Shown: positions 10,898 to 63,811 of the stretch, piece by piece
Layout: each line of letters starts with the position of its first letter
How positions within the stretch are numbered: position 1 is the stretch's first letter
NCBI RefSeq assembly: GCF_032118995.1
Contig: NC_092659.1
Coordinates: forward strand, 14,502,177 to 14,566,176
Direction of reading: 5' to 3'
DNA from: Asterias amurensis
Taxonomy: Eukaryota; Echinodermata; Asteroidea; Forcipulatida; Asteriidae
DNA: 64,000 nucleotides
Translations under genes and position numbers: made by a program
Notes under the pieces: generated by a model
Databases searched by the model: none
Seen by the model: only the letters and a program-made list of their open reading frames with translations
What the model was told of the DNA's origin: nothing

Positions 10898-12252
10898 TTA
10901 CTCAGCTAGCTATAAGCATAATATAGTATCATTGTGTACAATGCCTATGCCGGCATCCTGTGTTGGGGCCCAGCTGCAGGGGGTAACCCTGTTTCAGGCC
11001 CAGGGCCAGGAGCACACAAAAGTAGGAGGCAATGGGCCCCTGGATGGTGGCAGTTGGTTTGGGTCGATGGCCCAAATCATTTAAGTGTAGCCCTCTTAGA
11101 GTGGCCATCTGTGGGCTTGTGAAGTTGTCTCTCATAAATAACAACAATCAGAAATTGTGCCGTCAATGTATAATAAGGTGACTGTCGTGTCGTAGGATGA
11201 CAGTCCCCCTTTAACCATGGTACATTTATCATTTGGGGAGAGATTGGAGTCTGCTCTGTTTGGAACACGAGAGCTTAATTACATACCTTCGTCTCTGCCA
11301 TGTCTGCTGCTTGACATTTTCATACTTATCCAACATCGACGGAACACAGTTGACCATTTCAGTCCAATCCGCATGGACACCACACGCCCACCCCGACAGA
11401 GTACTCACTGAACAGCCACTGTTCGTTCTCACTCCCTGGACGAGAACAGTTGCAGGCCTTTATGCCGCGCTGACAAACACAAGGCTTCTCCAACATAAGG
11501 TTTGCTTTGAGGTGTCGACCGAAATTGGACCCTCCTGTTTTCTGGATATGCACAAAAACAATGACGTCTTTCCAATGTTTCCCGTAGATATCAAAAGTAA
11601 CATTCTTGGATGTGAATTCTCGTGTGGTGTCGTGTAGTGCCATTTCCCCCCGTTTACACATATACATGTCCATGTCAAAGGAATCGTACAGCAGAGATAA
11701 GATTGTCAAACCAACAATTGTACTTAGTCCAACAAAATAATAATTTGCCATTATTGTTTGCGCAGCTTGGTTCACATGGCTTTACAAATCAACCTGAAGG
11801 TAAAGAAGGTGCCTTAAAAAGTTTGGGGTGCGGATAAATTCTCCTCATTTTGGATCAAAAAGTGCCGACACCGACAGCTTCATTGGGAAGCCTTGGAATG
11901 CATCCTCAATGCTGACTATAATTCTGGCAATTCAGAACCTGCATTTGAAAGAAAGAACAATTTTTCGTTTAGGTTTTATTGAAAACAAAAGCCTTTGGTT
12001 ATTTTAAAGAACAAAAATGGATTTTAAAACTGGGTTGGTGACAACCATGAATGCAACTAAATTTTACTTTCATAAAACAGAAACGTTGGTAAAAATCTGC
12101 ACAAAACCAATACATTATTAATTAAATATATACGTACACATGCACATGTTAGTGGATTGGCCCTTTTAGTGTGAACTGCAGATGAGAAATCAGCTTATTT
12201 TAAAAAGGTATCAATATAAACCACAAGGGAAACTGACTGGGTAAATTTTGAA

Positions 12253-30800: not shown

Positions 30801-33800
30801 ATCAGAGATTGACAGTGTTTTGTCATCGACTCCTTCAACAGCACAGCCTAAACACACAGAAAAGAAATTTAAAGGTATTATACAGGACTGGGAGAGCCGA
30901 GAAAAATAGTCGCAGACACTGTTCATGTGTTGTGTGATCAACCAGGCCTGGAATTTGATCTTTGAAAGGGCAAGGCCATTTTTATTCTGCAAAGCCCACT
31001 TCCATTGGAAAATCTTAAAGTCTATGAGAAACCTTTGAAGGGGCACCAAGTCAAAGACCAGCCGTCGATTTCATCAAACTCTTTCTAACTTAGGATTAAT
31101 CTTAGGACTTGGGCAAGTCAAGTTCCGTATCCAAAGACGTAGGACGTATTGAACCCATCCGAAGTAAGAACAGGTTACTCGTCCTAACTCGAGATAGGAT
31201 CAATCCTAGCAATTCGTGAAATCGGCTGCAGGGCAAGGACGGCCATATCCTCCATGAAATCCCAGGCCTGAACAATCACATACAATATGTACATGAAACA
31301 ACAAACAGTGAAAATTTGGGCCTATGCTGCTGTGTGAGTCAGGAGCATAGTGAAAAACCAAGCACAATTTTCACATTGTAAAACACATTGTCCTTATTTT
31401 TGAAAGTAACAACCAACATTTTATTTTAGGCTTTAGATATAGTTTTCCCGAATATGACTTCATTTCAGAGGAAAATATTTCACAATGGTTCTCTACATGA
31501 AGTATAGTGAAGAGCCTTGTTCAAGGGCACAAGTGTCATGACATGGATTTGCAACCACACTCCACTCAGCTGACAACACAAAAGCTTGGGTCCTGCAAAC
31601 TAGACACCAGGGCCCAATTTCATGGCTCTGCTTTCCGAAAGCACAGAATCGGCGCTTACAGAAGCAGGGAATTCTGTGCTTACGGCAAGCGTATTTCACG
31701 CGTTAGTGGCGAATTTGGGCTTCTGCGCGTGCGTACACCACGTTACTAGGCATTCTACGCTTACAAGGCTAGCGCAGAAATTCGGCGCTTGCACGTAAGC
31801 GGGGAATCGTGATCGTAAGCGCAGAATTAGGCGGTAAGCAGAGCCATGAAATTGGGCTCAGTTGCGTTCGGCAACACCACACCACAAAGCTAACTAGACA
31901 GGGCAATATTCTTACCTTAAAGACTTCAAATTCTGCAAGACATTTCTTCAGTACTTCGGCCATTTCTCCATCTTTTGCTTGTGCCTTGAGAATAAAATAA
32001 ACAACATTCAATTTGTTACTTAACATAGTTCCTTCTGGCTGACATCCTTGCACGAAACTAACATTTAAGATTTAAAGGCAGTGGACACTATTGGTAATTA
32101 CTCAGAATAATTGTTAGCATAAAACCTTACTTGGCAACGAGTACTGGGGAGAGGTTAATAGTAAAAAACATTGTGAGAAACAGCTCTCTCTGAGGTAACA
32201 AAGTTTGTGGGAAATAAGTATTTTTCCACAAATTTGATTTCAAGACCTCAGAATTAGATTTTGAGGTCTCGAAATCAAGCATCTGAAAGCACAAAACTTT
32301 GTGTGACAAGGGTGTTTTTTTCTTTCATTATTATCTTGCAACTTCGATGACCAGTTGAGCTAAAATTTTCACTGGTTTGTTATTTTATGCATATGTTGAG
32401 GTACACCAAGTGAGAAGACTGGTCTTTGACAATTACCAACAGTGTCCAGTGCCTTTAAGACTATGCATGGTGTAAAACATACTTAGTGAGTAAAGTTTGC
32501 GACGACTGATGTAAAAATCTCTCTTTTTGTGAGTAGTGGTGGCTCTGAGACGAACCGGTTCGTTTGTTCGACATTTCGGTCAGTGCGCTCTGATCGTCTT
32601 CATTCTCCCGAAGACTGTCGGAGCACGCTGACCGAAACGAAGAGGGGGAACAAACCGGCTCTTCCCAGAGCCACCACCATTGACAACAGAGATTTTTACA
32701 TGGTGTCACCACAAACCTTAGGCTGTGTCCGAAACGGCGACTTCAGCTACAGCTACGGCTAGATCAGTGCATCTGTCATTGTGGAAGAATGGACAGAAGT
32801 GCAAGATCTAGCCGTAGCTGTAGCCAAACGCGCCTTTTCGAACACGGCCATACTTGCTTAGTAACCTAAACAATCCATTTTCCATTGGGATATCTTCTTC
32901 TTACCAAATACAGCTCCGACTCCAAGTTCACAATTTTAGATTTTTCTGTTTTCTTGGCCTTCTTGGCACTCTCCACCTGCAAAAAGAGAACGGTTTTTAG
33001 AACATGAAAACATGTTGCAAGTAAATATAATTGGAGACTTAAAGAGAGAGTATAATAATGTACACATAATGACTCATAAAACTAATGGCAGTAAAATCTT
33101 ACTTGCCTAGAAGTATTACCGTCGATTTCACCAAACTCTTCATAACTTAGGATTTATCTCAGGACATAAAACGAGTTAAGTTTCGTATCCATAGACGGTA
33201 GGGCATTGAACCCATCCTAAGTTAGGAAAAGTTACATGTCTTAAAGGAACACGTTGCCTTGGATCGGTCGAGTTGGTCTTTGAAAAGCGTTCATAACCGT
33301 TTGTTATAAAAATGAATATGGGTAGAAAGATGATGTAAAAATAGAATACAAGGATCCACACAAACATGCCTCGAAAATGCACGGTTTTCCTTTTACCTCG
33401 TCGACTAACACGGTCGGCCATTTATGGGAGTCAAATTTTTGACTCCCATAAATGGCTGAGCGTGTTAGTTCGCAGAGTAAAAGAAAAACCACGCAATTTC
33501 CAGGCATGTTTGTGTGGATCATTGTATTCTACTTTTAAAACATCTCTCTAACCATATCGATTTTATAACAACGGTTACAGAACGCTTTTCAAAGACCAAC
33601 TCGACCGATCCAAGGCAACGTGTTCCTTTAACACGGATTGTCCAGATAAATAACACTGTATACTATACATGTAACAACCAACCTTGTTCCGGCAGGCGAC
33701 CACCTTGCTTGCAGATTTCTCTTTTTCTCTCTGGACTTCTGTGATTTTCTTTCCTTCTGCTGTGATGTCCTTGAACGTCTTTCTGTATCTGGAACACTAA

Positions 33801-47156: not shown

Positions 47157-47165
47157 TATATAAAG
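47157..47165 (+). promoter_or_regulatory. TATA box of gene copy A
   Basis: TATATAAAG lies 130 bases before the ATG. The same box at the same relative place precedes copy B, and the 5' leaders share GTGAGCTGTC, TTCCCCTGATT/TTCCCTGATT and GGTTGTTCGATCATC. Confidence 0.75.
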
Positions 47166-47286: not shown

Positions 47287-50200
47287 ATGCCTCTACGCAT
47301 ACTAGCAATCTTGACAGTACTGACACTGGTGTTGACCAGCTGGGTGAGTGTTTGTAAGAGAATTATTTGAGACACATTGATTATGAAGCCCCACTTGAGC
47401 CTTCTGACTATATAGTAGTGCGACCAAAAGACACTAAGTTGCGGCCTTAAAGGAAGTTAACGAAAGTTGCGGCCGAAAAAGATAGTAAGTTGCGACCGTA
47501 AAAAGATAGTAAGTTGCGACCGTAAAAAGACAGAAAGTTGCGGCCGTAAAAAGACAGAAAGTTGCGGCCGTAAAACGATGGTAAGTTGCGACCGTCAAAA
47601 TATAGAAAGTTGTGGTGGAAAAAAGATAGTAAGTTGCGGTCGTTAAGAAGATAGTAAAACGCGGACGTAAAATGATGGAAATCTGTTGCCGTAAAAAGAT
47701 AGAAAGTTGCGGCCGTAAAAAGATAGAAAAGCTGCGGCCCTAAACCGACAGAAAATTGCGGCCGTAAAAAGATAGAAAGTTGTGGCGGAAAACAGATAGT
47801 AAGTTGCGGTCGTAAGAAGTCTGTTGCGACCGTAAAAAGGTATAGGTTTTCTCGGTCAGATCCGAAAAATGAGCAGCCAATATCATGTTCATGCGTTCTC
47901 CAGTTGTTACTGCGTTTCAAATTCAGAATTCGGCCATTTAATTTAATTTTGAATCTAGTCAAATGCATTTAGCACTCTGTTCAATTTAGCGTATCGTCAT
48001 TCTTTTTCGTGACACACACGCCTCAACAAGCGTCTGTGAATTGGAATGCTGCTTTGATGAATTGTTAAATTGAACGATTATTTTGTTAAATCGAATGACA
48101 CAACATCACATTTGACTAATCATAAAACGAAATCGAATGACTCTTTTCAGTAGCATTCGATTTCGCGCGAAATAGAATAGCTTGGTGGTTTAATTGGCTG
48201 TTCATTTGCCGAAATTGACCGAGAAAACCTATATAGTAAGTTGCGACCCTAAACAAGTAGTAAGTTGCGGCCGTACACAGATAGAAAGTTGCGACCTTAA
48301 AAGCATGGAGAAAGAAAATAGTAAAAGATAGACATTTGCGGACGTAAAAGGATAGAAGTCTGCGGCCGTAAAAAGATAGAAAGTTGTGACGGCAAAAAGA
48401 AAATAAGTTGCGGTCGTAAGAAAATATAGGTTTTCTCCGTAAAATTCGGTTAAATGAGCAGTCAATTTTATTTTCATGCGTTCGAATTAAAGCTATTTTG
48501 CCTCTCCAGTTGTTACTGCGTTTCAAATTCAGAATTTGGCCATTCAATTTCGTTTTGAGATCGAGTCAAATTCCTTTAGCACTCTGTTCAATTTAGTGTA
48601 TCGTCATTCTTTTCCGAGACACACACGCCCCAAGAAGCGACTGCGAATTTGAATGCTGCTTTGTGAATTGTTAACTTGAATGATTATTTTGTTAAATCGA
48701 ATGACGCAACATTACATTTGACTAATAAAACGAAATCGAATGACCCTTTTCAGTAGAGTGCGATTTCGCGCGAAATAGAAGCTTGATGGTTAAATTGGCT
48801 GCTCATTTTCCGAAATTGGCCGAACAAAACCTATAGTTAGTTGCGACCGTAAAAAGATATAGTAAGTTGCGACCGTAAAAAGTAGAAAGTTGCGGCCGTA
48901 AACAGATAGAAAGTTGCGACCTTAAAAGCATGGAGGAAGAAAATAGTAAAAGATAGACATTTGCCGCCGTAAAAAGATAGTAAGTTGCGACCGTAAAAAG
49001 ATAGTAAGTTGCGACCGTAAAAAGACAGAAAGTTGCGACCGTAAAAAGATAGAAAGTTGCAGCCGTAAAAAGATAGAAAGTTGTGGCGGGAAACAGATAG
49101 TATAGACCTAAGTTGCGGTCGTAAGAAGTTGCGACCGTAAAAAAGTAGTATGTTGCGGCCGTAAACAGATAGAAAGTTGCGACCTTAAAAGCATGGAGGA
49201 AGAAAATAGTAAAAGATAGACATTTGCGGACGTAAAAGGAAAGAACCTGCGGCCGTAAAAAGATATAATGTCGCGGCCGTCAAAAGATAGAAAGTTGTGG
49301 CGGAGAAAAATTATAGCAAGTTGCGGTCGTAAGAAGATAATAAGTTGCGACCGTAAAAAGATAGAAAGCTGCGCGGCCGTAAAAAGATAGAAAGTTGCAG
49401 CCGTCAAAAAGATAGAAACCTGCGGTCGTAAGAGGATAGAAAGTTAAGACCGTAAAGATAGATAGAAAGCTGCGGCCGTAAAAAGATACCAAGTTGCGGC
49501 CATAAAGAGACACTAAATTGCGGCCGTAAAAAGATGCCAAGTTGCGGCCGTAGAAAGATGGCGGCAAAGATAACAATTAGTTGCCGATGCCGCCATTTGA
49601 TACATACTGAATACTAATGTAAGGTAAGAAGTGGCGACCGTAAGTTATACTAAAGCTGTGGCCCTTAGATGCAAAGTGCCGGCCACAAGTTGCAATCTTA
49701 AAGGACACTATTGGTAATTGTCAAAGACCAGTCTTCGCACTTGGTGTATCTCAACATATGCATAAAATAACAAACTTGTGGAAATTTGAGCTCGATATTG
49801 GTCGTAGAAGTTGCGAGATAATGATGGAAGAAAAACACCCGTGACACACGAAGTTGTGTGCTTTCAGAAGCTTGATTTCGAGATCTCAAAATCTAATTCT
49901 GAGGTCTCGAAATAAAATTCGTGGAAAATTACTTCTTTCTCTAAAAGTAAGGTACTTCAGAGGGAGCCGTTTCTCACATTGTTGTATAATATCAACAGCT
50001 CTCCATCACTCGTTACCAAGTAAGGTTTTATAATAATAACCATTTTGAGTAATTACCATTAGTGTCTTTTTTACCATCACTGCCTTTAAACGGTATGATG
50101 TAATGACCTTTTAGATTAATGTCAATTATTGAGATATAAGTATAATGCATTTTGTGAAACGTTTCACTTCGAATAACTGCGATTATGGAAAAAGATATCA

Positions 50201-52752
50201 CTTGTCCCCCAACAATTTAACCTGAGAAGCGTTACTGACAGTAACGCTTCTCAGATTGTGCAAGCCCTAACAGATTATCTGCTGGGACCTAACTTATTAA
50301 ATCCCGGTGACACGTTGCCTCGCATTATTTGGCGCTTTGGGCTATAAAACGCTTTTGTAATGAAATAAATACAACTGGAAAGATGTTTGAAAAGTACAAT
50401 CATGTATTATGATCCATTCAAAGTTCTTCGCAGTGCATGTGTTCCCCTTAACTTCGTAAAACTAACGGCCTGCCATTTTGCAGAACCAAACTTTTGACTC
50501 CACGAAAGGGCATGACTGTGTTATGCGAAGTGAAAGAAAACCACAATATTTTGTGGGTATTGGATAAATCAATAAATTTTTCCACTATTAAGGCATCCTG
50601 CAAACCACCATTCATAAATACCTCAGACAGTTTCGCTATTCCTATTTGTGGAGAGCGCGTCACGTGGGTCGTGTATAAACCTTTGTTTTTGACCAGTAAA
50701 CAGTGTTGAAACATGTGCGTGACACGCGAGCTTGCACCTGTTCTTATAAGACAGTTTCTTCATTCCTATTGGTCGAGAGCAACGGCTGAAACAGTTGTGC
50801 CACATCACGCGATACGCGCGACGCGCACAGCATTCCCTTGTAAGGAGTTGTTTACCCGAGGGCGGCGGAGGGCTTTACCATTTCATAGCTGGAGGGGTGT
50901 TGTGTTGAAAGAAATCAGTGAACAATTATAATTTTTGCATTTATTTTACTTTTTGACCAAAAAGTTTCGATGTTTTTGACCAAAAAGGTATTTTTGAATG
51001 GGAATCAAAGTGTGTTGAATCGGTTTTCAACTAGTGGTTTAAACCCGCAAAGGCCTGGTTCTTGATAATTTACCTCGACTTCGTCTCGGTAAAATTATCA
51101 AGAACCAGGCCTCGTTGGGATTAAACCACTAGTTGAAAACCTCTTCACCACACATTGATTCCCTTATTAATTTCATAACATACGCTTTTTATTATAGCCT
51201 AAACCAGGAACATCTCCCGTTATCCTTCGCAATGGCAGGAAACCGATTAAACTTGCGCAACCATTATTTTTCTTTGACATACCTTTTTGCTCATTATGAT
51301 GTTGCCTTCACTGGTACTGCTGTTAACCCGTCACGTCGTTCCTTCAGACACACGACGTCATTTTATAAGGTGTTTATTCGCAACTAGAGGACGGACTTTA
51401 TAACTGTTGTAATGCCGTGCTCCCATTGGCAAATACTCTACTCGGCTTTGGGCGTGAATTGCTACGTTTGTGCTGCTTGGCGAAAATACAGCCGCCATCT
51501 TGAAACAAATAATGTGAGATAACAGTTTTGAAAACACTTTTGAAATAATGGACAACTGTAAAACAAAAACAAAAAAACAAAAAAGGAAGACCACATTGCG
51601 AAATGGCCACCGTCTTACTATCATGCCCACCATCTTGCAATAAGAGACTTTGGAACGCTAGGTGGCAGCAGACTTACCAGGTAAATGTCCATTGTTCACG
51701 TAGTTCTGAGCATGCGCACATAACCGAGAACAATGGATTCTGCTGCCACCAAGCGTCCCGAAAGACCCCTATTGAGATACCTTAACAAATTTTAAAGAGT
51801 GTTAATGATATACTTTGTCACAGGTTGGGACGGCAGAAGCGGTGGATAACTATTATGTCGCCCAAAAAGCAAAGGAATACGCAGCTCAAGGCAGCACTAG
51901 ATGGACATTTGAAGCGTATCACCCATATGGTGGGAGAAACACGGACAAATGCAACCTCTTTGTTGCAGATGTGCTTGAAGAGATGGGGAAAAAGGTCCCG
52001 CATAGGTAAGACATGGACCACTCAGCACCACTCTGCCTAGACTTGATTCAAGTCCCATTCTCGTGTGAGAGGTCCCTAAGCATATACCCAAACTTACTAT
52101 AAATAAAAACAACACGTAGCATACACAGTACAGTGCGCGCTCGCCGTCAAAATGTGGTCCCGAGAATGGGATTTGACGAGGTCGTTTCTTACTCTGCACG
52201 TTGTTATTGGAAAATCTCCCCAAATGGGGAGATGTACAAAACCAATGGGAGCGTGGAAGCGCTGCCCGCTGGTAAAATATTCATTATACTCTGTGACATC
52301 ACAGAGTGGAAGACAGTGGGGCGGGTAAACTCATTAGCAGGCAAGGGGGTGTCGGTGTCATAAGTCGTTTTATTGCACTTCCCAAAATTAAACTTGACCA
52401 AGATGGAGGCAGCATGATAAAGGTTTAAACTATTAGCCCGACTTATTTTGTGCTTCCGTTTCCATCTTCTTATCAATTCAGATGGTGGGGGATGGCTGGC
52501 CCTATCGGTGCAGGGGAGTGGGGCAACCCACATTCATCTTACTTGACAAGCGCATGGTGCTGGAAGAATACATTAACTCCGAATGAAGGTAACGTCGTCG
52601 GAGACGGGAGACACGTCGGGATCATGACCGGATTGAGACAAACAACCAGTGCCGGAGCGAATGGACTCGTGACCAACGACTGGGGTTTTCGTGCATTTGG
52701 ACCTGGAAGCCGTGATTCTGTAACCTTCTGGGCAAGCGTTTGTTCTTTTTGA
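47287..52752 (+). CDS. Secreted NlpC/P60-like (papain-fold) protein, copy A, catalytic residues present; 3 exons
   Basis: Exons 47287-47343, 51824-52005 and 52482-52752 (stop TGA) give 169 residues. Junctions are TGG|GTGAGT, CACAG|GTT, AG|GTAAG and TTCAG|A, with matching phases 0 and 2. Exon 1 is a signal peptide (RILAILTVLTLVL, residues 4-16). The mature part has a helix then TDKCNLFVADVLEE, with C62 at the N-end of a helix as the probable nucleophile; EWGNP (92-96); RHVGIMTG, with H124 as the probable general base; and NDWGFR (145-150), with N145 as the possible third residue. The order KCN-x-FV, then GHVGI-like, then NDWGFR is that of bacterial NlpC/P60-type cell-wall amidases and peptidases, including interbacterial effector domains. 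A role as a secreted, perhaps antibacterial, peptidoglycan hydrolase is inferred. Intron 1 (4.5 kb) holds a 22-bp satellite. The stop lies exactly where a dispersed repeat begins. Confidence 0.8.
47846..48232. mobile_element. AGGTTTTCTCGGTCA MITE inside the satellite, first copy
   Basis: Left AGGTTTTCTCGGTCAGATCC, right AATTGACCGAGAAAACCT, with TAT/TA at both borders. The interior includes GTTGTTACTGCGTTTCAAAT, CACTCTGTTCAATTTAG and ACGAAATCGAATGAC. Confidence 0.88.
48425..48833. mobile_element. AGGTTTTCTC MITE inside the satellite, second copy
   Basis: It has the same interior order as 47846-48232. The ends AGGTTTTCTCCGTAAAATTC and GGCCGAACAAAACCT are more diverged. Because satellite units flank both copies, one copy may have arisen by amplification together with the array. 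Confidence 0.85.
49703..50084 (-). mobile_element. TTAA-flanked 380-bp MITE
   Basis: TTAA-AGGACACTATTGGTAATTGT at the left (a few end bases lost). The right end has a small insertion: ACCATTAGTGTCTTTTTTAC then CATCACTGCCT-TTAA. Confidence 0.85.
50222..50254. repeat. Perfect 16-bp inverted repeat with a 1-base centre
   Basis: CTGAGAAGCGTTACTG, a single A, then its exact complement. It stands alone in intron 1 of copy A. Confidence 0.95.
50310..50940. other. Intron 1 stretch of copy A, diverged repeat only
   Basis: GGTGACACGTTGCCTC and GCGCTTTGGGCTATAAAACG echo the AGGAACACGTTGCC foldback family, without the second arm. Inner phrases TTTGTGGAGAGCGCGTCACG and CTATTGGTCGAGAGCAACGG look like decayed internal duplications. 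No exon is found. Confidence 0.4.
51022..51141. repeat. Long near-perfect inverted repeat, 120 bp
   Basis: GGTTTTCAACTAGTGGTTTA, AGGCCTGGTTCTTGATAATT and TACC, with the complementary arm from GGTAAAATTATCAAGAACCA to CACTAGTTGAAAACC. The loop is around TCGACTTCGTCTC. Confidence 0.92.
51643..51772. mobile_element. GAGACTTTGGAACGCTAGG inverted-repeat element
   Basis: Left AGAGACTTTGGAACGCTAGG followed by TGGCAGCAGA. The right arm has CTGCTGCCACCAAGCGTCCC then GAAAGACCCCT. Inner TCCATTGTTCACGTAGTTCT faces GAGAACAATGGA. It lies 50 bp before exon 2. Fragments are at 34198 and 62900-62960. Confidence 0.82.
52035..52183. mobile_element. AGACTTGATTCAAGTCCC MITE in intron 2 of copy A
   Basis: Left AGACTTGATTCAAGTCCCAT and TCTCG, right CGAGAATGGGATTTGAC. 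Inner GAGAGGTCCCTAAGCA, AACAACACGTAGCAT and GTGCGCGCTCGCCGTCAAAA recur at 52752-52835 and 58550-58640. Confidence 0.82.
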
Positions 52753-53100
52753 GAGGTCCCTAAGCAAGTCACCCCAACTTTACTATAAAACAACACGTAG
52801 CATGCTATACAGTACGGTGCGCGCTAGCCGTCAAAATGTCAACTTACTTGGGAACGAGCAATGTGGAGCAGTTGGTAGTACAACACATTGTGAGAAACAA
52901 CTCCCTCTGAAGTAAGTCAGTTTTCGAGAAAGAATTAATTTTCCACGAATTTGGTTTCATGACCTCAGAATTAGATTTTGAGGTCTCGAAATCAAGCATC
53001 TGAAAGCACACAACTTCGTGTGACAAGGGTTTCTATTATTATCTCGCAACTTCGACGACCGATTGAGTTCAAATGTTCACTGGTTTGTTTTCTTTGTGCA
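52752..53100 (+). repeat. 3' flank of copy A made of two repeat fragments
   Basis: Positions 52752-52835 are the inner part of the AGACTTGATTCAAGTCCC MITE (GAGAGGTCCCTAAGCAAG ... GCGCGCTAGCCGTCAAAATG). Positions 52838-53100 are an interior piece of the TTAA 380-bp MITE, missing both ends. No native 3' UTR is recognisable. Confidence 0.75.
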
Positions 53101-53166
53101 TTTTTGAGTATGCTTAGTTTCCTTTAAATGAAAGGCATCTCTCATTTGTAATCAGTTAGTCATTCT

Positions 53167-53316
53167 TTGTGACATTAGACTTGTGAACAAGTCGTTAAAT
53201 CGGGGAGCCAGCAGTTCGCGCGAGAGCAATGATCTCGCGAGAGCACCGCCACAACTCGACTATATCACCGCGTGGGACCGATATAACGACTTGTCTACAA
53301 GTCTATTGTGACATTG
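53167..53316. repeat. Inverted-repeat element
   Basis: TGTGACATTAGACTTGTGAA with CAAGTCGTTA faces TAACGACTTGTCTACAAGTC followed by TATTGTGACAT. The interior has CTCGCGAGAGC. Confidence 0.82.
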
Positions 53317-53696
53317 GTTTTACCTGCTAGATATAGAAAAAAAATGTGAAGTTCACACGCTCTTTGTCACACTTATGTGTACATTAGTTTGGACAATCGA
53401 CGTAAGTAATTTAGTCTTGGTACAAGACGCTACTATCTCAAACTCGTAACGCAACGCGATAACCCGACAGAGGGCTTGAATCTTGATATTTTTTTGTTTA
53501 TATGTTAATATATGTTTAGAATGCCAATTGTTTTAATGTTGCGATTGTTGGTTTCTGTTTAAGATTTTTTAAGACAATACATGTGTATGCTGCTTTCGCA
53601 AGGTTGCTGATTAACAGTTTGTTGTTTTCACTTTTGTACGAGATAGTATACATAGCCAAAGCAAATGTTCGCCACTTTTATATGTTTGCCATTTTA

Positions 53697-54077
53697 AAGG
53701 TAGTGGGCACTATTGGTAATTACTCAAATTAATTATTAGCCCAAAACCTTTCTTGGTGACGAGTAATGGGGAGAGGTTGATAGTATAAAACATTGTGCGA
53801 AACGGCTCCCTCTGAAGTAATGTAGTTTTCGATAAAGAGGTAATTTTCCACGAACTTGATTTCGAGACCTCAGATTTAGAATTGAGGTCTCTAAATCAAG
53901 CATATGAAAGCACACAACTTCGTGTGACAAGGGTGTTTTTTCTTTCATTATTATCTCGCAACAACTTCGATGACCGGTTGAGCTCAAATTATTGCAGATT
54001 TGTTATGTTATGCATGTGTTGAGATACACCAAGTGAGAACACTGGTCTTTGACAATTACCAATACTGTCCAGTGTCT
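53697..54077 (+). mobile_element. TTAA-flanked 380-bp MITE abutting another TTAA element
   Basis: TTAA-AGGTAGTGGGCACTATTGG ... ACCAATACTGTCCAGTGTCT, then TTAA at 54078-54081, which is also the left target site of the next element. Confidence 0.9.
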
Positions 54078-54081
54078 TTAA

Positions 54082-54625
54082 AGTCACCTGGAAGTGGTAT
54101 TTTTTTAAAATAAAGCTTTTGTAACTATTATATGTGTTTTGATGAGTGGAATGTGAATAAACAGTTAACTAAGGTTTTAAAAAATCAGTTCTCATGTTAT
54201 TTACAAATTTAAGAGTAGACCCCGACCCGAGAGGGCGCTGTTCGTGACGTCAATCGAGGCAGACTTTGCCTGTAATGCGTAGAGTAAACACAATTGCAAA
54301 GTACATGTACGGACAAAGTCGTGAGTTTGTACTTTCTTTTTCCCGGCAATGCCGGCCAGGTGTAGTGCTGCTGAATGCAGAAAAACACTTTTTGAAATGT
54401 ACCAACTCAAGACTTGGACGTACATGTACTTTCCACGTGTGTTCACTATACGCATTGCAGGCAAAGTCTGCCTCGATTGACGTCACAAAAGGGGTAGGCG
54501 GAGTCAGCCCCTTAAACAACTTATATATTTTTTAAACATATAAATCGTGACAAACAATTACTAAAAAAATTGTTTTATTGTTCGTAAGCATATACTCTTA
54601 AAACAAATTATATTTCCAGGTGACT
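54082..54625. mobile_element. TTAA element, AGTCACCTGGAA family, with a nested inverted repeat
   Basis: AGTCACCTGGAAGTGGTATT at the left, TTTCCAGGTGACT then TTAA (54626-54629) at the right. The inner arms GTGACGTCAATCGAGGCAGA and TCTGCCTCGATTGACGTCAC form a second perfect inverted repeat. Confidence 0.9.
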
Positions 54626-55145
54626 TTAAATAAAATGCCACACAAACAAGTCAAAATCAGGCAAAATACGCAAAATTTATGAAGACCTTTAAACTCAATA
54701 AAATTAGCATGCACCCATCAAGCAGTATCCCCGATTGTGCTGCTTGGCCAAAATACAGCCGCAATGTTGAAAAATAAAGGGAGGTTAACAGTCTCGCACT
54801 TTAAAAATGTCCTTTTAAATTTTATAAAGACAACCGTAAAACGAAATGAAGATAATATTGCGAAATGGCAACCATTTTACTATCATGCCGACCATCTTGA
54901 AATTGAGAGACCTAAACTGACACTAAAGCCATTTTCACACGAAATTTAGCAAGGGTCCCTTGCTTAGTTTTAGCATGGTTGCGAAATATCACCTCGTGTG
55001 CAAGGACAGCAAATGTTCATTATACTGTCCGTAAAGGAAAGCAAATGTTTTCTTTGGGACCTTGGTCAGTCCAAACGTGTGTTATCCTTTCACAACGTGG
55101 AATTTGAAACAATTGTACAATTTGTAGTTTTCACAAACACGCTTA

Positions 55146-55526
55146 AAGGCACTGGACACTATTGGTAATTACTCAAAATAGTTATTGGAATATAACCTTA
55201 CTTGGTAACGAGTAATGGGGAGCTCTTGATAGTACAAAACACTGTGAGAAACAGCTCCCTCTGAAGTAATGTAGTTTTCGAGAAAGAAGTAAGTTTCCAC
55301 GAATTTGATTTGGGGGCTCAGATTTAGAATTTGAGGTCTCGAAATCAAGCATCTGAAAGCACACAACTTCGTGTGACAAGTGTGTTTTTCTTTCATTAGT
55401 ATCTCGCAACTTCGATGACCGATTGAGCTCAAACTTTCACAGGTTTGTTATTTTATGCATATGTATGTTGAGATACAGCAAGTGAGAAGACTGGTCTTGG
55501 ACAATTACCAATAGTGTCCAGTGTCT
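55146..55526 (+). mobile_element. TTAA-flanked 380-bp MITE, nested
   Basis: TTAA-AGGCACTGGACACTATTGG ... ACCAATAGTGTCCAGTGTCT. The right TTAA (55527-55530) is shared with the following element. Confidence 0.92.
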
Positions 55527-55530
55527 TTAA

Positions 55531-55894
55531 AGCCATTATACACTTTCGGTAAACAGTATTGTCCAAGTCCCACACTTCGTGTATCACAACTTACATATAA
55601 GATAACAATCCTGTGGAAATTTAGGCTGAATCGGACATCGGAGTCGGGAGAAAATAACGGGAAAACCCACTCCTGTTTTCGCGCGTTTCGCCGTGTCATG
55701 ACATGTGTTTATAACAAATCCGTAATTCTCGTTAACGAGAATTTATATTGTTTTACCGTTTTCTCAAAAAGTAAAGCATTTCATGGACTAATATTTCAAG
55801 AGATGTCTTTCACCATTACCTTCTGTAAACCCTGTAAATTATTTGTAAATCTGTGAACCCTTTTTTTTTTCTGTACCGAAAGGGTCCAATGGCT
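55531..55894. mobile_element. AGCCATTATACACTTTCGG TTAA element, nested
   Basis: AGCCATTATACACTTTCGG at the left, AAGGGTCCAATGGCT with TTAA (55895-55898) at the right. Its interior matches 18545 and 39090. Confidence 0.9.
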
Positions 55895-56489
55895 TTAAAC
55901 TAAGCAAGGGACCCCAGTTAAATTGCTGTCGTGTGAAAAGGGCACTAGTCCCTTTTCGAAACCACGTTTATAGCCTTGGACTCCAGCTTGGGATCCGTCC
56001 TTCAGATTGAAGTCCCTTATAATATGGAAAGCGCACGTCTTTAAGTAACTGGTTGGAGCCATATGACCAAAATAAGAAGCCCTTTGTGATGAGTTTCATG
56101 CTTTTATAAGAGGCATGAGGTTTCCACAATGCTAAAGTCTGGACCATACGGAGTGAAAGGAGCACTTAATGGCGTACATTTGTGCTCGATACGGCAATTT
56201 ATGATTTTTGGCAATTTTAGATTGTGATTGAAAAAAAAAACACCCTGTTGTTTCAATTATTTCCAAACTATAGCTCCTTTTAAAACCGCAGCATTGGCTC
56301 ATGCTTCATATAGGCTCCGTCGGTAATTATTTAGAAAAACGCGCCCTTTCAGGTATAAGGGGCTTTAAAAGGGCAGACGGGGCTTAAGAGCCAACGCTTA
56401 AAGGCATATGCTGGTGGAAGACTCATATCAGGACCCAGACTTTGACCCATTATATCGTTTCGATGTTATACATATAATTTACAAAAAAT

Positions 56490-57083
56490 AGTTAATGGCC
56501 TGACGTTTCGACCCTAGCAGAGTCTTTCTCGAAGGCTAAATGACAACACAACAAACATGAACAGGTAACTATAAGTGAAACATAAGCAGTGAAGTGGAAA
56601 TACATGAATGGGGTTAGAAAGCATACATAAAAAAACAGGGGGGTAAACAATGAATAGGGGGACAAAAAAGGGGGGGTTGAAGGGAAGGGACTGGCTTGAC
56701 CACAAGCAAGAGGATGGAAACACATATAATTTACAACAGAATAAGATCGTTCTTTCTGATAGACTAATGCAAAACATTTTGGACACGTCAATGAGTGGCA
56801 TGCATGGGCGTGGCATGTCCTTAAGCGCTCGCGTCTCACCACTGTCGTGCTGGTTCGGTTCACACGGCCAAGGCCATCGAGACTTTCCATGCCAAGTTTT
56901 TTGTTTCTCTGGGGTAGGCTTACGGTTTTCCTTTCTCAGGGAAAATGGAACACTTTTGATTGCTGGCTGTGTGCTCTCTATTGTCGGTCGACATGGCTGA
57001 CTGCCAAAGGTGCACTGGCACGCCTGTGGCTCAAACAGCTTCTTAGCTGCAACATTCACAATGATTAATAGCCTCCGCAACAT
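56490..57083 (-). repeat. Probable degraded retroelement end, no intact coding region
   Basis: On the minus strand, AGCCTTCGAGAAAGACTCTG and CTAGGGTCGAAACGTCAGGC lie at about 56536-56498, a terminal phrase seen in many invertebrate retroelements. The upstream open minus frame (56514-57083) shows no reverse-transcriptase or endonuclease motif. Confidence 0.4.
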
Positions 57084-58257
57084 ATTATTTAATTATCAAG
57101 TTCGCGATTTTGTTTCGCTCACATGAAATCTTAACGTAAAGAAGGTCATCAAACGGATCTTGGAATTTAAATTCAGCCTTTCAGGCAGAATGTATGACGT
57201 CAAATACCCGGCTGAGAAGAAACGTATTAAAATTTTGCTTTTGTATTTCATAAACATATCTTGTTGTATCAGTATGTATGAGTACTGGTGAATACTCAAT
57301 TGTAAGTTTTTACCCCCCCCCCCCAAAAAAAAAAGGGGGGAAGAAGAAAAAAAAAACCTAAACCAAAACCCAAAATCCCAAAACGCAGTATTTGTTGTCA
57401 GTTTGTTTTGTGTGTATAGATGACAATTTGATTAGTTGGAATTTTCAAACCTAAGTATTGATTATGACTACATTGTTCATCTCCTGTGATCCACATGGAA
57501 CTTCTTTGTACAAAGTCTGTTGAAAAATTTAGTCTGGTCTGGAACCAACGGTAAAGACATGCAAATTGTTGTGTTATTTATTTGTACATACTTACTATTG
57601 TTATTCTACAATACTCGATCAACGTTGGCTGTAAACTGTAAAGGGCTGTCAAGAGCAGAGAACGACAGGGCTTTTACAGACGAGAGGACGGAGCCTGAAG
57701 CCAAATGTATCGGCACTCTGCATGGCACACATTTTCAAATATGTGGAGACATCTTTTGTTTTTCTCTATTTTGTCTCCGTACATTTTCAAACAGACTTTG
57801 TACAACAAAATTTCATATGATGGAACACCCCCAGTCTTTAGAATTTGCCCACATGGAGTTCTTTTAGTTCCCATTTTGTTTGTGTGTCATTGGCCTGCAT
57901 GGTACGGAATATGAGCAGATGCTCAAACGAACCTTGCGGATCCTGTTTTGAGTCATGTTGTTCTTAATTATTCCCATTACCAAATACCATGTGTCACATG
58001 TACCATTGTGATTAGTATCCTGTTCACTTTTGCTTAAAGGTAGCATCATTTTCTGTTTAAGCAGCTCTATTCGGCACGGGCAAAATTGTTTAAAGAGCTA
58101 TTATTAAGCGAAAAAGTAGCATAAATCAACAAATTAATAACAGACTAATGGTACAGCCAAAACATGATAAACAGACCTTCTCAGCTTTTGTCAGAGAATC
58201 GTTAAGCATTATTTTCTGCCGCTTTAAGCAGCTTAAAAATTGGGCAGTGACGGTACT
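57084..58257. other. Gene-free stretch
   Basis: A C/A/G homopolymer cluster lies at 57313-57353. A plus-strand open frame at 57520-57867 has no recognisable domain or splice support. Nothing else is seen. Confidence 0.45.
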
Positions 58258-58525
58258 TAGTTGGAACCAGTATAAAGAACCAACGGAAACCATGGAGAGT
58301 GCATCCGGGTTTGCGTGTTTGTGTTTTGAACCTCTGTTTAAAATTAAAGACGCCTCGCCCTGAAGTTAGCGGAGATAATTTCGTTTTGGAAAGTGAGGGT
58401 GTGGTTAGATGACTTTTGGTGGGCAATAGAGGAATGAAGTTTTGTTTGTATACCGTACAACTCCAAAACAACGATGTGTTTATCACTGGCGGTGTGGCAG
58501 GAGATTCTGTGCCCCCCCCCCCCCC

Positions 58526-58820
58526 AGACTTGATTCAAGTCCCATTCTCGTGTGAGAGGTTTCTAAGCATATTTTCCTCCAAAATTTTCCTGTAAAACAA
58601 CACGTAGCATACATACAGTGCGCGCTCGCCGTCAAAATGGCCCCTTGCTTAGTTTTAGCAGTGGAATAGAGTCGATAGTGAGAATATGGATTGGATGATA
58701 GGGATGCTCCCACCATTGAGGTGTGGATGGGAGGAACAGGTTTTGGAATGCAGAGCATCACAAAACAATAGTTTCCTGGGGATGGCACTGGATTGGGACT
58801 TGAGTCAAGTCTAGTCCTCC
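58526..58820. mobile_element. AGACTTGATTCAAGTCCC MITE, longer copy
   Basis: Left AGACTTGATTCAAGTCCCAT, right GGATTGGGACTTGAGTCAAG then TCT. The interior has GTGCGCGCTCGCCGTCAAAA, then AATAGAGTCGATAGTGAGAA, which recurs at 59317-59340. Confidence 0.8.
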
Positions 58821-59438
58821 CCCCGGAGATTTGGTACGCCCATGGCAAACTGTGTACAAACTTCTTCTGATAGCGCCCTCTTTTGAATCCTCCTGCTCCA
58901 GCCCACTATTTCTCATTTTTATTATAGGGGACCGAATCTCCGGCGGACAGAATTTATTCCCACTACTCCACATAGAGAGCTGGACGTGTTTGTGTGTGCA
59001 CATCTAAATCGGGACCTATCTGTAACAGATGATGACAATAGGGTCTAGGTTATTGGTTGAAGGTACCAATCTTGAAAGTCCAATTGGAGCTGGTGCCAAA
59101 CAAGCTGGTAAAAACAAAAGGGGATTGCAGGTTGTTTACGCACAAAGATGCAATAAAGTAAGGTTTGCGAGTGGATGCAAAATAATGAAAGGCGCCTACT
59201 TATTAGTTGCGCAAATTTCTGGCACACTATTCAGAAATGATAGAAAAAGAAAATCAAAAGAAAAAGCGAAATCAGCACGGTTTTTATCCCAAATCCCCGA
59301 CCAATCACCAATGGAATAGAGTCAATATTGTGAGAATATGAATTGGATGTAGGGATGCTCACCATTGAGGTGTGGGGTGGGAGGAATCACGGGGAAGTCA
59401 ATTATTTATTTCACAATAAAATAATACATCCACCTTTA

Positions 59439-59629
59439 AGCCCGGTTCATACTTCCTGCGAATGCGAATGCGAAGCGAATTTGACGTGAATTTGACGTCA
59501 CACCCTCCTTTCGCAGCAATATTCGCAAGAGAGTAGAGCAGAGGGCAACTGCTGCGAATTGCCCCGTTGCGAATTTGTGACGTCAACATTCGCTTCGCAT
59601 TCGCATTCGCAGAAAGTATGAACCGGGCT
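59439..59629. mobile_element. AGCCCGGTTCATACTT MITE, best copy
   Basis: Left AGCCCGGTTCATACTTCCTG and CGAATGCGAATGCGAAGCGA; right TCGCTTCGCATTCGCATTCG and AAAGTATGAACCGGGCT. TTA lies on both sides (59436-59438 and 59630-59632), which suits PIF/Harbinger. Confidence 0.92.
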
Positions 59630-59756
59630 TTAGTATGACTCAATGCAGGAAGGTAGACAGTTCATTTTGATTAGTGCTCGGCACGAACCCGGATCTCGAG
59701 GGTTAAGAAAACGGCCCACATGAGGCAAACAAGCAGTGTATCTTACTTTATACTTA

Positions 59757-60094
59757 AAGACACTATTGGTAATTGTCAAAGACCAGTCTTCTCACTTGGT
59801 GTATCTTATATACATACAATAACAAACATGTGAAAATTTGGACAATGGAAGAAAAACACCCTTGTTGCACGAGTTACGTGCTTTCAGATGCCCTGAATTC
59901 GAGACCTCAGCTGAAGTCCCGAAATCAAATTCAAACTATTGTAGTGAGAAATTACTTCTTTCTCAAAAGAAACGTTCAGAGGGAGCCGTTTCTCACGATG
60001 TTTTATACCATCATCAGCTCTCCATTGTTCGTTTAATACCAAGTAAGTTTTTATGCTAACAATTATTTTGAGTATTTACCAAATGCCAAGTGCC
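59757..60094 (-). mobile_element. TTAA 380-bp MITE, shortened
   Basis: TTAA-AGACACTATTGGTAATTGTC at the left, TTTACCAAATGCCAAGTGCC-T-TTAA at the right. Several internal deletions. Confidence 0.85.
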
Positions 60095-60196
60095 TTTAAT
60101 TGGGGGTTAGTTCTGTTGAAAAAGGAACTTCTGCGGTGAAATATGAACACATCTGCTATTGTAATTTGCAATACTAAAAAAAAATTAGAAAGTGTG

Positions 60197-60205
60197 TATA
60201 TAAAG
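60197..60205 (+). promoter_or_regulatory. TATA box of gene copy B
   Basis: TATATAAAG lies 117 bases before the ATG, embedded in AGTGTGTATATAAAGGAGCT, which parallels AGTGTATATAAAGAGGCTC in copy A. Homology between the copies extends upstream at least to CACGAACCCGGATCTC (about 59676; 46979 in copy A). Confidence 0.75.
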
Positions 60206-60313
60206 GAGCTCAGTTCCTTTACATCTCAGAAAATGTTTTGGCCGTGAGCTGTCTAGTTCCTGTCTTCTTCGTGAGAAAAATTTCCCTGATTCGGTTGTTC
60301 GATCATCGTCACC

Positions 60314-63300
60314 ATGGCTCTACGCATACTTGCAATCTTGACTGTACTGACACTGGTGTTGACCAGCTGGGTGAGTGTTTTTTTAAGAGAATTCTTTTAA
60401 AGACGCAAATAATATGAAAGAAAAATATACTAACTTGCGGCCGTAAAAAGATGCTATTAGTTGCGGCCGTAACAAGATAGACTCTGAAAACTAAAGAGTT
60501 TAAAGGCAGTGGACACTATTGGTAATCACTCAAAATAATTATTAGCATAAAACCTTACTTGGTAACGAGTAATGGGGAGAGGTTGATAGTATAAAACATT
60601 GTGAGAAACGGCTCCCTCTGAAGTGCCATAGTTTTCGAGAGAGAAGTAGTTTTCCACGAATTTGATTTCGAGACCTCAAGTTTAGAACTTGAGGTCTCGA
60701 AATCAACTATCTAAACGCACACAACTTCGTGTGACAAGGGTATTTTTTCTTTCATTATTATCTCGGAAGTTCGATGACCGATTGAGCTCAAATTTTCACA
60801 GGTTTGTTATTTAATGCATATGTTGCGATACACCAAGTGAGAAGACTGGTCTTTGACAATTACCAATGGTGTCCACTGCCTTTAATCCAACACTTGCATG
60901 AGTTCGGTGAGTGTATACACTTCGAAAGTGTTAGATCCAGCGTTTTTTTTTTGGTTAAATCTAGCATTATAAGTTTTTGATCCAACGCAAAAGGGTTAAT
61001 TCAACAATTCAAGTATTATTTCAACATATCTCAAAAAAGTTCCTTTGAGTTGTTGGATCAGCTTTTTAAACGTTAAACTGGCACTTAAATTGTTGACCGA
61101 ATACTTGATGGATTTAACATATACAATGCTGGACTCAACACTTTCAAAGTGTAGTCACTCACCGAACTCATGCAAGTGTTGGATTCAACTCTTTAGTTTT
61201 AGAGTGTACTTAGTTGCGCCGTAAAAAGGTACTAAACCGCGGCCGCAAAAAGATAGTAAGTTCCGGCCATAAAGATACGAAGTTGCGGCCGTAAGATACA
61301 GTGGGACTGTATGGTAAGAAGTTGCAGGATACAAGTTGCAGCCGTAAAAATATACACTCTAAAATCTAAAGAGTTGAATCCAACACGTGCATGAGTTCGG
61401 TAAGTGACTACACTTTGAAAGTGTTGAATCCAGCATTTTATATGTTAAATCCAGCATTGTAAAATATTCAGGATCCAGTATTACTGCCAGTTTAACGTTT
61501 AAAAAGCTGATCCAACAATTCAAAGGAATATTTGTTTGAGAAATGTTGAAATAACATTTAAACTGTTGAATTAACCATTTTTGCGTTGGATCAAAACGTT
61601 TAAATGCTAGATTTACAAACAAAACGCTGAATCCAACACTTCCAAAGTGTAATCACTCACCGAGCTCAAGTGTTGGATTCATCTCTTTAATTTTTAGAGT
61701 GTACTAAGTCGCGGCTGTAAAGAAGTTGCGACCGTCAAGACTCAAGAGACGCTAAATTTCGGCCGTAATACTAATTTGCGGCCGTAAAAATAAACTTAGT
61801 TTAGGCCGTAAGAAACTTTGGCCGTAAAAAGATGCGAAGTTGCGGCCGCAAAAAAAATATTAAATTGTGGCTGCAAAAAGATACTAAGTTGCTGCAAAAA
61901 AGTTACGGCAAAGATAACCAGTTGCACTTAGATACTTTGTAAGGTAAGAAGTTGCAGCAAGATGCAAGTTGCAGGAAAGAGGAAGTGGTGACCATGTGGT
62001 CGTTGTATGCAAAGTGCACCAAAATACGAAGCTGCAGTCAACTAAAGGAAATTGCAACCTTAAAGGCAATGGACACTATTGGTAATTACTCAAAATAATT
62101 ACTAGCATAAAATCTTACTTGGTAACGAGTAATGGGAAAAGGTTATAATATAAAACATTGTGAGAAACGGCTCCCTCTGAAATGACGTAGTTTCCAAGAA
62201 AGAAGTAATTTTCCACGAATTTGATTTCGAGACCTCAGACGTAGAATTTGAGGTCTCGAAATCAAGCATCTACAAGCACACAACTTCGTGTGACAAGGTG
62301 TTTTTTCTTTCATTATTATTTTGCAACTTCGACGACCAATTGAGCTCAAATTTTCACAGGTTTGTTATTTTATGCATTATGTTGAGATACATCAAGTGAA
62401 AAGACTGGTCTTTGACAATTACCAATAGTGTCCAGGGTCTTTAAGACACCAAATTGCAGCTGCAATATTGTTGGTGACCGAAATGTACTAACTTGCGGAC
62501 GGCGTGTTGTAGGAAACATTTTTTTTTATCCAAGGTTGCTTTGACATAAATGTATTATACTTTGTCACAGGTTGGCAAGGCAGAGGCCGTGTCCGGCACT
62601 ACTATCGCCAACAAAGCAAAGGAATACGCTGATGCAGGCCTGACTAATTGGACATATGCTGCAGCTCATCCAGATGCTAGTCGGTTTGACTTTCGTCAAA
62701 ACCTCGTGACTGATGGGTCAAACGCGAGAAAAAGCCACCTGTTTGTGGCAGATGTTTTTGAGGCAGTCGGGGTAACGGTCCCGCATAGGTAAGACATGCA
62801 CCACTCAGCCCAGTGTATTAGTTAAGGCCCCTATTATGATCCCTATAATGCCAACCAGTCAATAAAAGTGTAGAATACCGATGCTGGTCCCCGTTGCTGT
62901 AGAGGGCAGCAGACTTAATACCAGGTAATCCAAAGTTCATTGAAATGTCTGCCAGTGTTAAAGAATAGGGAGACGCATGCGATCTAGCCAGACCTCAGTA
63001 GCCGAAGTCACCGGACTCGGTGTTAGTTAAAGGCAGTGGACACTATTGGTAACTACTCAAAATAATTATTGGCATAAAACCTCACTTGGTAACAAGTAAT
63101 GGGGAGAGGTTGATAGTATAAAGCATTGTGAGAAACGGCTCCCGCTAAAGTGACGTAGTTTTCGAGAAAGGAATAATTTTCCACGAGTTTGATTTCAAGA
63201 CCTCAGATTTAGAATTTGAAGTCTCGAAATCACGCATCTAAAAGCACACAACTTCGTGTGACAAGGGTGTTTTTTCTTCCATAGTTATCTCGCAACTCCG

Positions 63301-63811
63301 ATGACCAACCAAGCTCAAATTTTCACATGTTTGTTATTTAATGCATATGTTGAGATACACCAAGTGAGGGGACTGGATTTTGACAATTACCAATGATTTC
63401 CATTGTCTTTAACCAAGTTGGTAAGGCTGCTGCCACTATATCGTTTAACAGTCTCCCATTCTGAATTCAAACGGCCAAAAATTTAATACTATCAGTCTGA
63501 CTCATTTTTTGCTTCCAATTTATTATCTGTTTAGAAGGGTAATGGTGGCGCCGGTACCTATCAGTGCATGGGAATGGGGATACCAGTATACCTCTTACTT
63601 GACTATATCCACATTGTGCTGGGAGTTAAGATCGTATCCGAGTGTAGGTTACGTCATCAGCGATAGAACATACGTGGGGATTGTGACCGGAGCGAATGAA
63701 ACAACCATTGCCGCATCTGCCAAACTTCTGTCCGTCGACTGGGGTTTTCGCGATGGATCTGGATTTGGAAGCCGTTCTTCTATAACTGCATACTGGGAAT
63801 ACGTTTGTTAA
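60314..63811 (+). CDS. Secreted NlpC/P60-like protein, copy B, predicted pseudoenzyme; 3 exons
   Basis: Exons 60314-60370, 62571-62788 and 63535-63811 (stop TAA) give 183 residues. Splice sites and phases match copy A. The signal peptide is nearly identical (MALRILAILTVLTLVLTSW). Exon 2 keeps the scaffold (VGKAEAV, NKAKEYA, HLFVADVFE, VTVPHR). The nucleophile motif reads ARKSHLFV, so Cys is Ser (S74) and the following Asn is His. The His motif reads RTYVGIVTG (Y138 for His), and the third position reads VDWGFR (V159 for Asn). Compared with copy A there are 12 extra residues before the motif (around residues 59-70). The frame is open throughout, so loss of catalysis with retention of the fold is more likely than simple decay. 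It may act by binding cell wall or another ligand, or regulate copy A; both are speculation. Downstream: nothing native before the repeat at 63938. Confidence 0.8.
60482..61206. mobile_element. CTAAAGAGTT / TCCAACACTTGCATGAG element interrupted by a TTAA MITE
   Basis: The outer end ACTCTGAAAACTAAAGAGTT (60481-60500) continues after the insert as TCCAACACTTGCATGAGTTC (60887). The right end is CATGCAAGTGTTGGATTCAA, CTCTTTAGTTTTAGAGTG. The insert 60506-60880 is a full TTAA 380-bp MITE, AGGCAGTGGACACTATTGG ... ACCAATGGTGTCCACTGCCT, with TTAA on each side. Confidence 0.88.
61207..62058 (+). repeat. Remnant satellite and second AACACTTGCATGAG element in intron 1 of copy B
   Basis: Scattered GTTGCGGCCGTAAAAA units occur at 61207-61355 and 61705-62058, with two more at 60430-60480. 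They are more decayed than in copy A. An intact inverted-repeat element, ACTCTAAAATCTAAAGAGTT ... CTCTTTAATTTTTAGAGTG, lies at 61363-61703. Confidence 0.88.
62066..62438 (+). mobile_element. TTAA-flanked 380-bp MITE (reference copy)
   Basis: TTAA, then AGGCAATGGACACTATTGG; right end ACCAATAGTGTCCAGGGTCT, then TTAA. The interior order is GTAACGAGTAATGGG, AACATTGTGAGAAACGGCTC, TTTGATTTCGAGACCTCAGA, TTGAGGTCTCGAAATCAAGC (a central inverted repeat), ACACAACTTCGTGTGACAAG, GAGCTCAAATTTTCACAGG and TTGAGATACACCAAGTG. TTAA duplication is typical of piggyBac transposases; no such gene is in the window. It sits 130 bp before exon 2 of copy B. Confidence 0.92.
63033..63406 (+). mobile_element. TTAA-flanked 380-bp MITE in intron 2 of copy B
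   Basis: TTAA-AGGCAGTGGACACTATTGG ... ACCAATGATTTCCATTGTCT-TTAA. Full length. Just before it, 62967-63020 is a remnant of the GGCCGTGTCC MITE (GATCTAGCCAGACCTC, GTAGCCGAAGTCACCGG). Confidence 0.9.

Follow-up and report, generated by a model that had tools for sequence, protein, structure and literature searches.

In this report, we examine two neighbouring genes, which we call A and B, of the sea star Asterias amurensis. They lie in a stretch of 64,000 nucleotides (NCBI RefSeq assembly GCF_032118995.1, contig NC_092659.1, positions 14,502,177 to 14,566,176 of the forward strand), termed the window below, and they have a third relative, copy C, elsewhere on the same contig. The reading that we favour, with moderate confidence, is that A and C encode secreted hydrolases of peptidoglycan, that B is a pseudoenzyme that has been retained, likely as a binder, and that the three descend from a domain of the kind found in bacterial Rhs-type proteins. 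The initial annotation had presented A and B as a tandem pair of secreted NlpC/P60-like genes, one with an intact Cys/His site and the other with both residues lost. This observation is confirmed as real and not an artefact. It is extended here by the third copy, by relatives of the toxin type and by an inverse pattern of change between the copies that keep the site and the one that lost it; the family name has become less certain.

Both genes are on the plus strand, 7.6 kb apart, and their coordinates are given in the window. Copy A (47287-52752) is made of three exons, at 47287..47343 (the core of a signal peptide), 51824..52005 and 52482..52752, which join into a frame of 169 residues with no stop. 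Copy B (60314-63811) likewise has three, at 60314..60370 (again the signal-peptide core, with the same 19 residues as in copy C and two silent differences from it), 62571..62788 and 63535..63811, and they yield 183 residues with no stop. All four introns are of the gt..ag type, and their two positions are the same in both genes. Exons, splice sites, intron positions and frames are as first annotated, and the original numbering of the key residues (C62, H124 and N145 in A; S74, Y138 and V159 in B) is exact. The common promoter that had been claimed for the two genes is also found: the DNA upstream of A and B is 74% identical over the 199 aligned bases preceding the ATG, and both carry a TATATAAA box, read from the sequence, at 47157..47164 in A and 60197..60204 in B, on the plus strand. 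Intron 1 of A contains a 24-bp minisatellite (47460..49560, approximate limits, plus strand), which is found too in intron 1 of B (about 60430-61900) and of C, and which seems to have travelled along with the gene duplications.

The third copy came from searches of the animal's own genome, which covered 491.5 Mb in 23 contigs. Contig C23, of 16,427 bases, is mitochondrial to judge from its reading frames; we read ND2 and ND1 as lying opposite in strand to COX1, as is typical of sea stars, and the frames stay open to an equal degree under the echinoderm code and the general invertebrate one, so that the code gives no decision. A protein search gave six matches to exons, which fell at three places, namely A, B and C. 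Copy C is on the contig that holds the window (C12), about 6.1 Mb distant and on the minus strand, with its exons at C12:8424020-8423964, 8421477-8421278 and 8420806-8420539. A DNA search with the promoter and exon 1 of A also led to exon 1 of C: exon 1 and the promoter-proximal DNA, 145 bp in all, are 94% identical between the two copies. Once joined, C encodes 174 residues in which Cys, His and Asn are intact. The two genes of the window are a tandem pair in their spacing and strand, and they are at the same time two of three copies. Over exons 2 and 3, identities are 76/148 (51%) for A-B, which is far above chance outside exon 1, 96/148 (64.9%) for A-C and 100/155 (64.5%) for B-C. As C is at much the same distance from either gene of the pair, B is not simply a copy of A.

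A second genome search, made with C and accepting expect values (E) up to 10, found A, B and C again, along with two weak rows. One of these, on contig C8 (L040 4974-5078, minus strand; E 0.32), resembles exon 3 of C over 35 residues (SAICW..TGV..G.GKKVGI), and this stretch has a Lys at the His position. We rejected it as a fourth copy, since no exon 1, Cys motif or DWGF motif was found in the surrounding 10 kb, and we take it as a chance match, or as a decayed fragment at best. The other, on contig C13, has E 9.3 and contains three stops. A search of the genome with the Pfam NlpC/P60 model gave no match; this same search, which reads exons separately, misses A, B and C too. The surroundings of A and B also hold six copies of a dispersed repeat (at 52789, 53694, 55143, 60500, 62059 and 63027), which extends over 300 nt in register and up to about 390 nt pairwise, has matches in the region of C as well, and carries a palindromic segment, TTTCGAGACCTCA...TGAGGTCTCGAAA.

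No known family claims these proteins directly. Scans of A and B against Pfam, NCBIfam and PHROG gave no relevant family (there were two unrelated, sub-cut-off Pfam rows for B), and C matched no family in Pfam. Searches of the PDB sequences with A, with A and B together, and with the bacterial loci L011 and L016 introduced below returned no NlpC/P60 chain. Nothing matched among plasmids, whether the query was the protein of A, L011, L016 or L020 or the promoter DNA of A; a phage search with A gave one chance match (E 7), and five scans of viral contigs gave no confirmed relative.

It is a scan of genome contigs with a motif-masked alignment that gave the first bacterial relative. This is L011, from Catenovulum sediminis, with 34% identity across query residues 1-132. 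In L011 the domain is the C-terminal part of an Rhs-type frame; it has the motifs KCNL, HVGI and NDWGFR in common with the animal copies. Profile searches then matched 2 of 369 genomes in the class of Catenovulum and 3 of 398 in its phylum (a count that includes L018, dropped below); with a wider profile, matches were obtained in 4 of 394 genomes of its order. Catenovulum itself is part of all three counts. Rhs-type sequence precedes the domain in L011, L016, L020 and L022; this label is our own reading of the sequence for L011, L020 and L022, and among L011, L016 and L020, which were scanned, only L016 passes the Pfam RHS model. L021 is a different frame of 332 residues. In L017 (1351-2466, minus strand) the Cys position reads Arg (KRNLWV); we retained it as a row of the alignment, and it is possibly an inactive member on the bacterial side. 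L018 was dropped as a relative, because its match spans 34 model positions and none of its listed frames shows the family motifs. When the six bacterial domains were aligned with the three animal proteins by hhalign, the outcome was E 1.1e-17 and a probability of 98.9, so that the homology between the two groups is strong. Small genes stand right behind the Rhs-type frames in L011 (4408-4674) and L022 (745-1110), each with a hydrophobic N-terminus; by their position, they are candidate immunity proteins.

These relatives allow the residues of the animal copies to be placed. In A, the putative catalytic Cys62 (KCNLFV, 51950..51952, plus strand) is Cys in 5 of the 6 bacterial rows, and His124 (RHVGI, 52612..52614, plus strand) is His in all six. 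Asn145 (NDWGFR, 52675..52677, plus strand) belongs to a motif that is the same in L011, reads NDAGFR in L021, and is absent in the other four rows; this Asn would be the third catalytic residue. A and C both have the Cys, the His and a polar third residue, the Cys and His columns being common to the bacterial rows. In B, the same positions are Ser74 (KSHLFV, 62733..62735, with the following residue changed from Asn to His), Tyr138 (RTYVGI, 63671..63673) and Val159 (VDWGFR, 63734..63736), all on the plus strand. Judged from these residues, the sole place left for B in the NlpC/P60 superfamily is that of an inactive member. It retains exactly the two cysteines (120 and 183) aligned with those of A and C, and the catalytic one is gone.

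The changes that separate the three copies can be placed with respect to this site. Among 142 ungapped columns of the mature proteins, 67 are identical, 23 differ in all three, and 25, 23 and 4 are private to A, B and C, respectively. None of the 25 changes private to A is within three columns of the catalytic Cys, His or Asn, as against 10 of the 23 private to B (p 0.0002). Since B had been singled out for the loss of its catalytic residues, the test was repeated without those three: neighbouring sites are then changed in 7/18 cases in B, against 14/127 elsewhere (p 0.006), and in 0/18 cases in A, and the enrichment in B keeps a p of 0.002 to 0.009 over windows of 2 to 4 residues. Silent and replacement changes can also be set against each other. 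Within three residues of the site, A and C differ by 5 silent changes and no replacement, compared with about 20 silent changes and 79 replacements farther away (p 0.0006). B and C differ near the site by about 2 silent changes and 13 replacements, which sets the B-C comparison apart from the A-C one (p 0.001). In A and C, then, the active site is constrained and the remainder of the protein drifts or is driven; B has the reverse pattern at the site and no excess of change elsewhere.

Constraint is also seen in exon 1. Out of its 57 bases, only 4 differ between A and C (three of them silently), 2 between B and C and 3 between A and B, which is fewer than in exons 2 and 3 (p 0.003, 0.0003 and 0.00002, respectively), and the four variable codons bring a single amino-acid change. 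Differences so few, and mostly silent, mean that the part of the signal peptide encoded in exon 1 is constrained in A, B and C. The mature domain thus changes fast while the signal part in exon 1 is constrained, B included; in the last residues of the signal, encoded in exon 2, B and C are set apart by a single change (K for T).

Is B then retained, as the initial annotation had proposed for a pseudoenzyme kept for binding or regulation? A part of this proposal stands: B has lost the catalytic residues, its frame, splicing and signal exon are intact, its coding insertions and deletions are all in frame, its exon-1 peptide is maintained, and its changes are concentrated at the site. Several measures weigh against retention. 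The ratio of replacement to silent substitution rates (dN/dS) over exons 2 and 3, which had been suggested as a check of retention, is 1.02 for A-B, 1.02 for A-C and 0.87 for B-C, with all bootstrap intervals within 0.53-1.78; being near 1, it lends no support to selective maintenance, and the B-C value (bootstrap 0.53-1.33) means that no significant purifying selection is detected on the whole mature B. Exons 2 and 3 also diverge about as much as the alignable flanking and intron DNA, with 103/447 (0.230) against 211/905 (0.233) positions differing in A-C, 101/468 (0.216) against 176/723 (0.243) in B-C, and 133/447 (0.298) against 65/276 (0.236) in A-B (p 0.07). Local alignments had first suggested faster evolution in exons than in noncoding DNA; this was dropped after a positional global alignment, in which the noncoding part consisted of segments alignable by blastn, a choice that favours conserved ones. 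Of the 40 residues of C that are common to at least three bacterial rows, 36 are found in A and slightly fewer, 32, in B. The contrast in private changes becomes weaker in wider windows, being 3/25 in A and 11/23 in B at 5 or 6 residues (p 0.01). Finally, the branch of B carries about 68 substitutions by three-way arithmetic, and at this number the probability of finding no stop under neutrality is about 0.14, so that the open frame alone proves little.

The strongest competitor is accordingly a B that is a young pseudogene, whose site has been lost and in which no stop or frameshift has appeared yet. A dN/dS near 1, the nearly equal divergence of coding and noncoding DNA, and that chance of about 0.14 are what such a gene would display. 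A pseudogene would not be expected to have indels that respect the frame: each of the four coding indels that separate B from C has a length divisible by three, compared with 8/36 of the noncoding indels listed for A-C and B-C (10/45 when A-B is included). The chance of this is about 0.002 for the four against C, and about 0.01 for the three that only B has. Nor does decay sit well with an exon-1 peptide the same as that of C, with intact splice sites, or with changes that cluster at the active site instead of spreading. These tests rest on small counts and are partly interdependent. The in-frame indels, the splice sites and the unchanged exon-1 peptide make decay the less likely reading, and we regard the pseudogene as unlikely, while granting it real weight.

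One could also suppose that B is neofunctionalised, its former site having been remodelled by selection, for instance for a new ligand, rather than merely released from constraint. The replacement and silent changes near the site (about 13 and 2) correspond to a dN/dS of about 2 within 3 residues, and the neighbours at no more than 2 residues from the catalytic positions are changed in 6/12 cases, against 15/133 elsewhere (p 0.002). B has moreover two N-glycosylation sequons that are not in A or C, NWT (62646..62654, plus strand) and NET (63695..63703, plus strand). The silent and replacement changes near and far from the site do not differ significantly within the B-C comparison itself (p 0.23), the counts are small, and the windows were picked after the loss of the motifs was known. 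Remodelling by selection is for these reasons distinctly improbable as the main explanation.

The name NlpC/P60 requires a separate discussion, since it is supported through the bacterial relatives and not directly. The comparison set was built from 9 loci found, of which 8 were tried and 4 had a usable domain. Aligned by hhalign with these four genuine NlpC/P60 domains, the six bacterial domains reach E 8e-5, a probability of 61% and a score of 32.7, compared with 19.2 for the best of 150 column shuffles and 9.2 for the reversed control, and the catalytic Cys and His columns align between the two sets. L016 and L017 match the Pfam CHAP model with E 3.7e-4 and 3.4e-4, below its cut-off, and the bacterial domains score below the cut-offs of both the CHAP and the NlpC/P60 models. 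Searched against the PDB sequences (E up to 10), a nine-row profile gave 21 distinct matches, the best with an E of only 0.017; 16 are named peptidoglycan hydrolases or Tse1, 3 are unrelated, and 2 are unnamed chains over the same stretch of the profile as Tse1.

One may ask whether this resemblance is superficial and the animal family is not one of peptidoglycan hydrolases at all. A, B and C have no direct family match, a profile made of the three animal copies fails against NlpC/P60 (hhalign probability 0.6, E 0.096), and a structure model of the L011 domain from its single sequence is unusable (pLDDT, the model's own confidence measure, 32); these points count against our assignment. They are opposed by the strong homology of the animal copies to the bacterial Rhs-type domains, which themselves reach NlpC/P60 with the Cys and His aligned and score, even if below cut-off, on the CHAP and NlpC/P60 models. 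We judge a mere resemblance to be quite improbable, and membership of the NlpC/P60 superfamily to be likely, resting on the bacterial intermediates. As for a B that would be catalytic by another route, the change from KCN to KSH does put a Ser and a His at the site, as a Ser74 nucleophile with the new adjacent His75 as a base, but Tyr and Val now stand where the original His and third residue were, and neighbours on one helix would hardly reach the usual geometry, which leaves this route with very little credit.

From the observed bacterial homology, residues, gene structure and distribution of changes, the following history can be proposed for the reading that we favour, namely active A and C beside a retained, inactive B. 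An NlpC/P60-superfamily domain from the C-terminus of a bacterial Rhs-type toxin would share ancestry with A, B and C, and would presumably have been captured from a bacterium by an ancestor of the animal. The animal line, in which the genes have two introns, a signal peptide and a further pair of aligned cysteines, would then have duplicated the gene. A and C, judging from their residues, would be secreted and would cut bacterial cell-wall peptides through Cys, His and Asn. B would be secreted by the same signal, with the scaffold and the cysteine pair kept and the Cys, His and Asn lost, and it might bind peptidoglycan fragments without cutting them, as a sensor, an opsonin or a competitor of A and C. 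By analogy with the non-catalytic peptidoglycan recognition proteins (PGRPs), such a non-cutting binder is most likely what B is. A more ambitious version is a tentative possibility, in our view on the unlikely side: the captured toxin would have given a two-part system, in which A and C are the active cutters and a dead B, selected and with a remodelled cleft, senses or shields peptidoglycan, repeating independently the step from enzyme to receptor of the PGRPs.

Several known systems can be compared with this one, including the type VI amidases of ticks, which we take to be those named dae. The tick case is mentioned alongside the cwh genes of ladybirds, cell-wall hydrolases with introns, one of them with a signal peptide (PMC7807722); as far as the part of that paper used here goes, both are bacterial cell-wall hydrolases in animal use, as proposed for A and C, whereas cwh is of another family, Hydrolase_2, with no dead sister described. 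Another close parallel is with bacterial polymorphic toxins, which carry NlpC/P60-type toxin domains, Tox-NLPC/P60 (PMC3482391). L011, L016, L020 and L022 have a homologous domain with Cys and His, and with NDWGFR in L011; unlike these toxins, the animal copies are short and single-domain, have a signal peptide and introns, and lack Rhs repeats. Indeed, A, B and C consist of a signal peptide and the domain only, with neither the Rhs core nor the secretion module that would make them Rhs/type VI polymorphic toxins. The same source reports that animals have adopted polymorphic-toxin domains, including the inactive GHH domain at the C-terminus of teneurins (PMC3482391), likewise an inactivated bacterial toxin domain reused extracellularly, which differs in being a nuclease domain, ancient, and part of a large protein. 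An NlpC/P60 protein has also been described as a candidate type VI effector, together with a putative immunity gene (PMC10469887).

With classical NlpC/P60 enzymes (C40) and Tse1/Tae1, the similarity is at the profile level, over the Cys and His motifs; unlike them, the animal copies match no model directly, and in them the Asn of NDWGFR would serve as the third residue. CwhA of Aspergillus fumigatus, a secreted NlpC/P60 enzyme that cleaves peptidoglycan, is likewise eukaryotic and secreted, but it is a true Pfam NlpC/P60 protein with an SH3 domain (PMC12332128). Non-catalytic PGRPs are members of an animal peptidoglycan hydrolase family that bind without cutting; their fold, that of zinc amidases, is unrelated (PMC8124813). 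Literature searches aimed at echinoderms within open-licence papers gave no report of this gene family among the titles listed.

Elsewhere in the window, the minus strand carries, at 4854-11781, what appear to be two tandem copies of a sulfotransferase gene: the frames 4854-5456 (E 7e-22) and 9449-10126 (E 6e-21) match Sulfotransfer_2, 11362-11781 does so below the cut-off, and 6163-6663 has no match. Open frames at 29352-30847, also on the minus strand, contain a unit of roughly 60 residues (ISPQDSDISQPLSSPQLHPISRF...) that is repeated in tandem several times in near-identical form, and the frame 29975-30847 has no match in Pfam.

If the reading that we favour is true, NlpC/P60-like toxin domains of the Rhs type would be an added source family of bacterial weapons captured by animals. 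The three copies would then offer a case in which the loss of catalysis, the retention of the scaffold and site-specific change can be traced directly, and they would make it testable whether the dead sisters of captured antibacterial enzymes turn into receptors.

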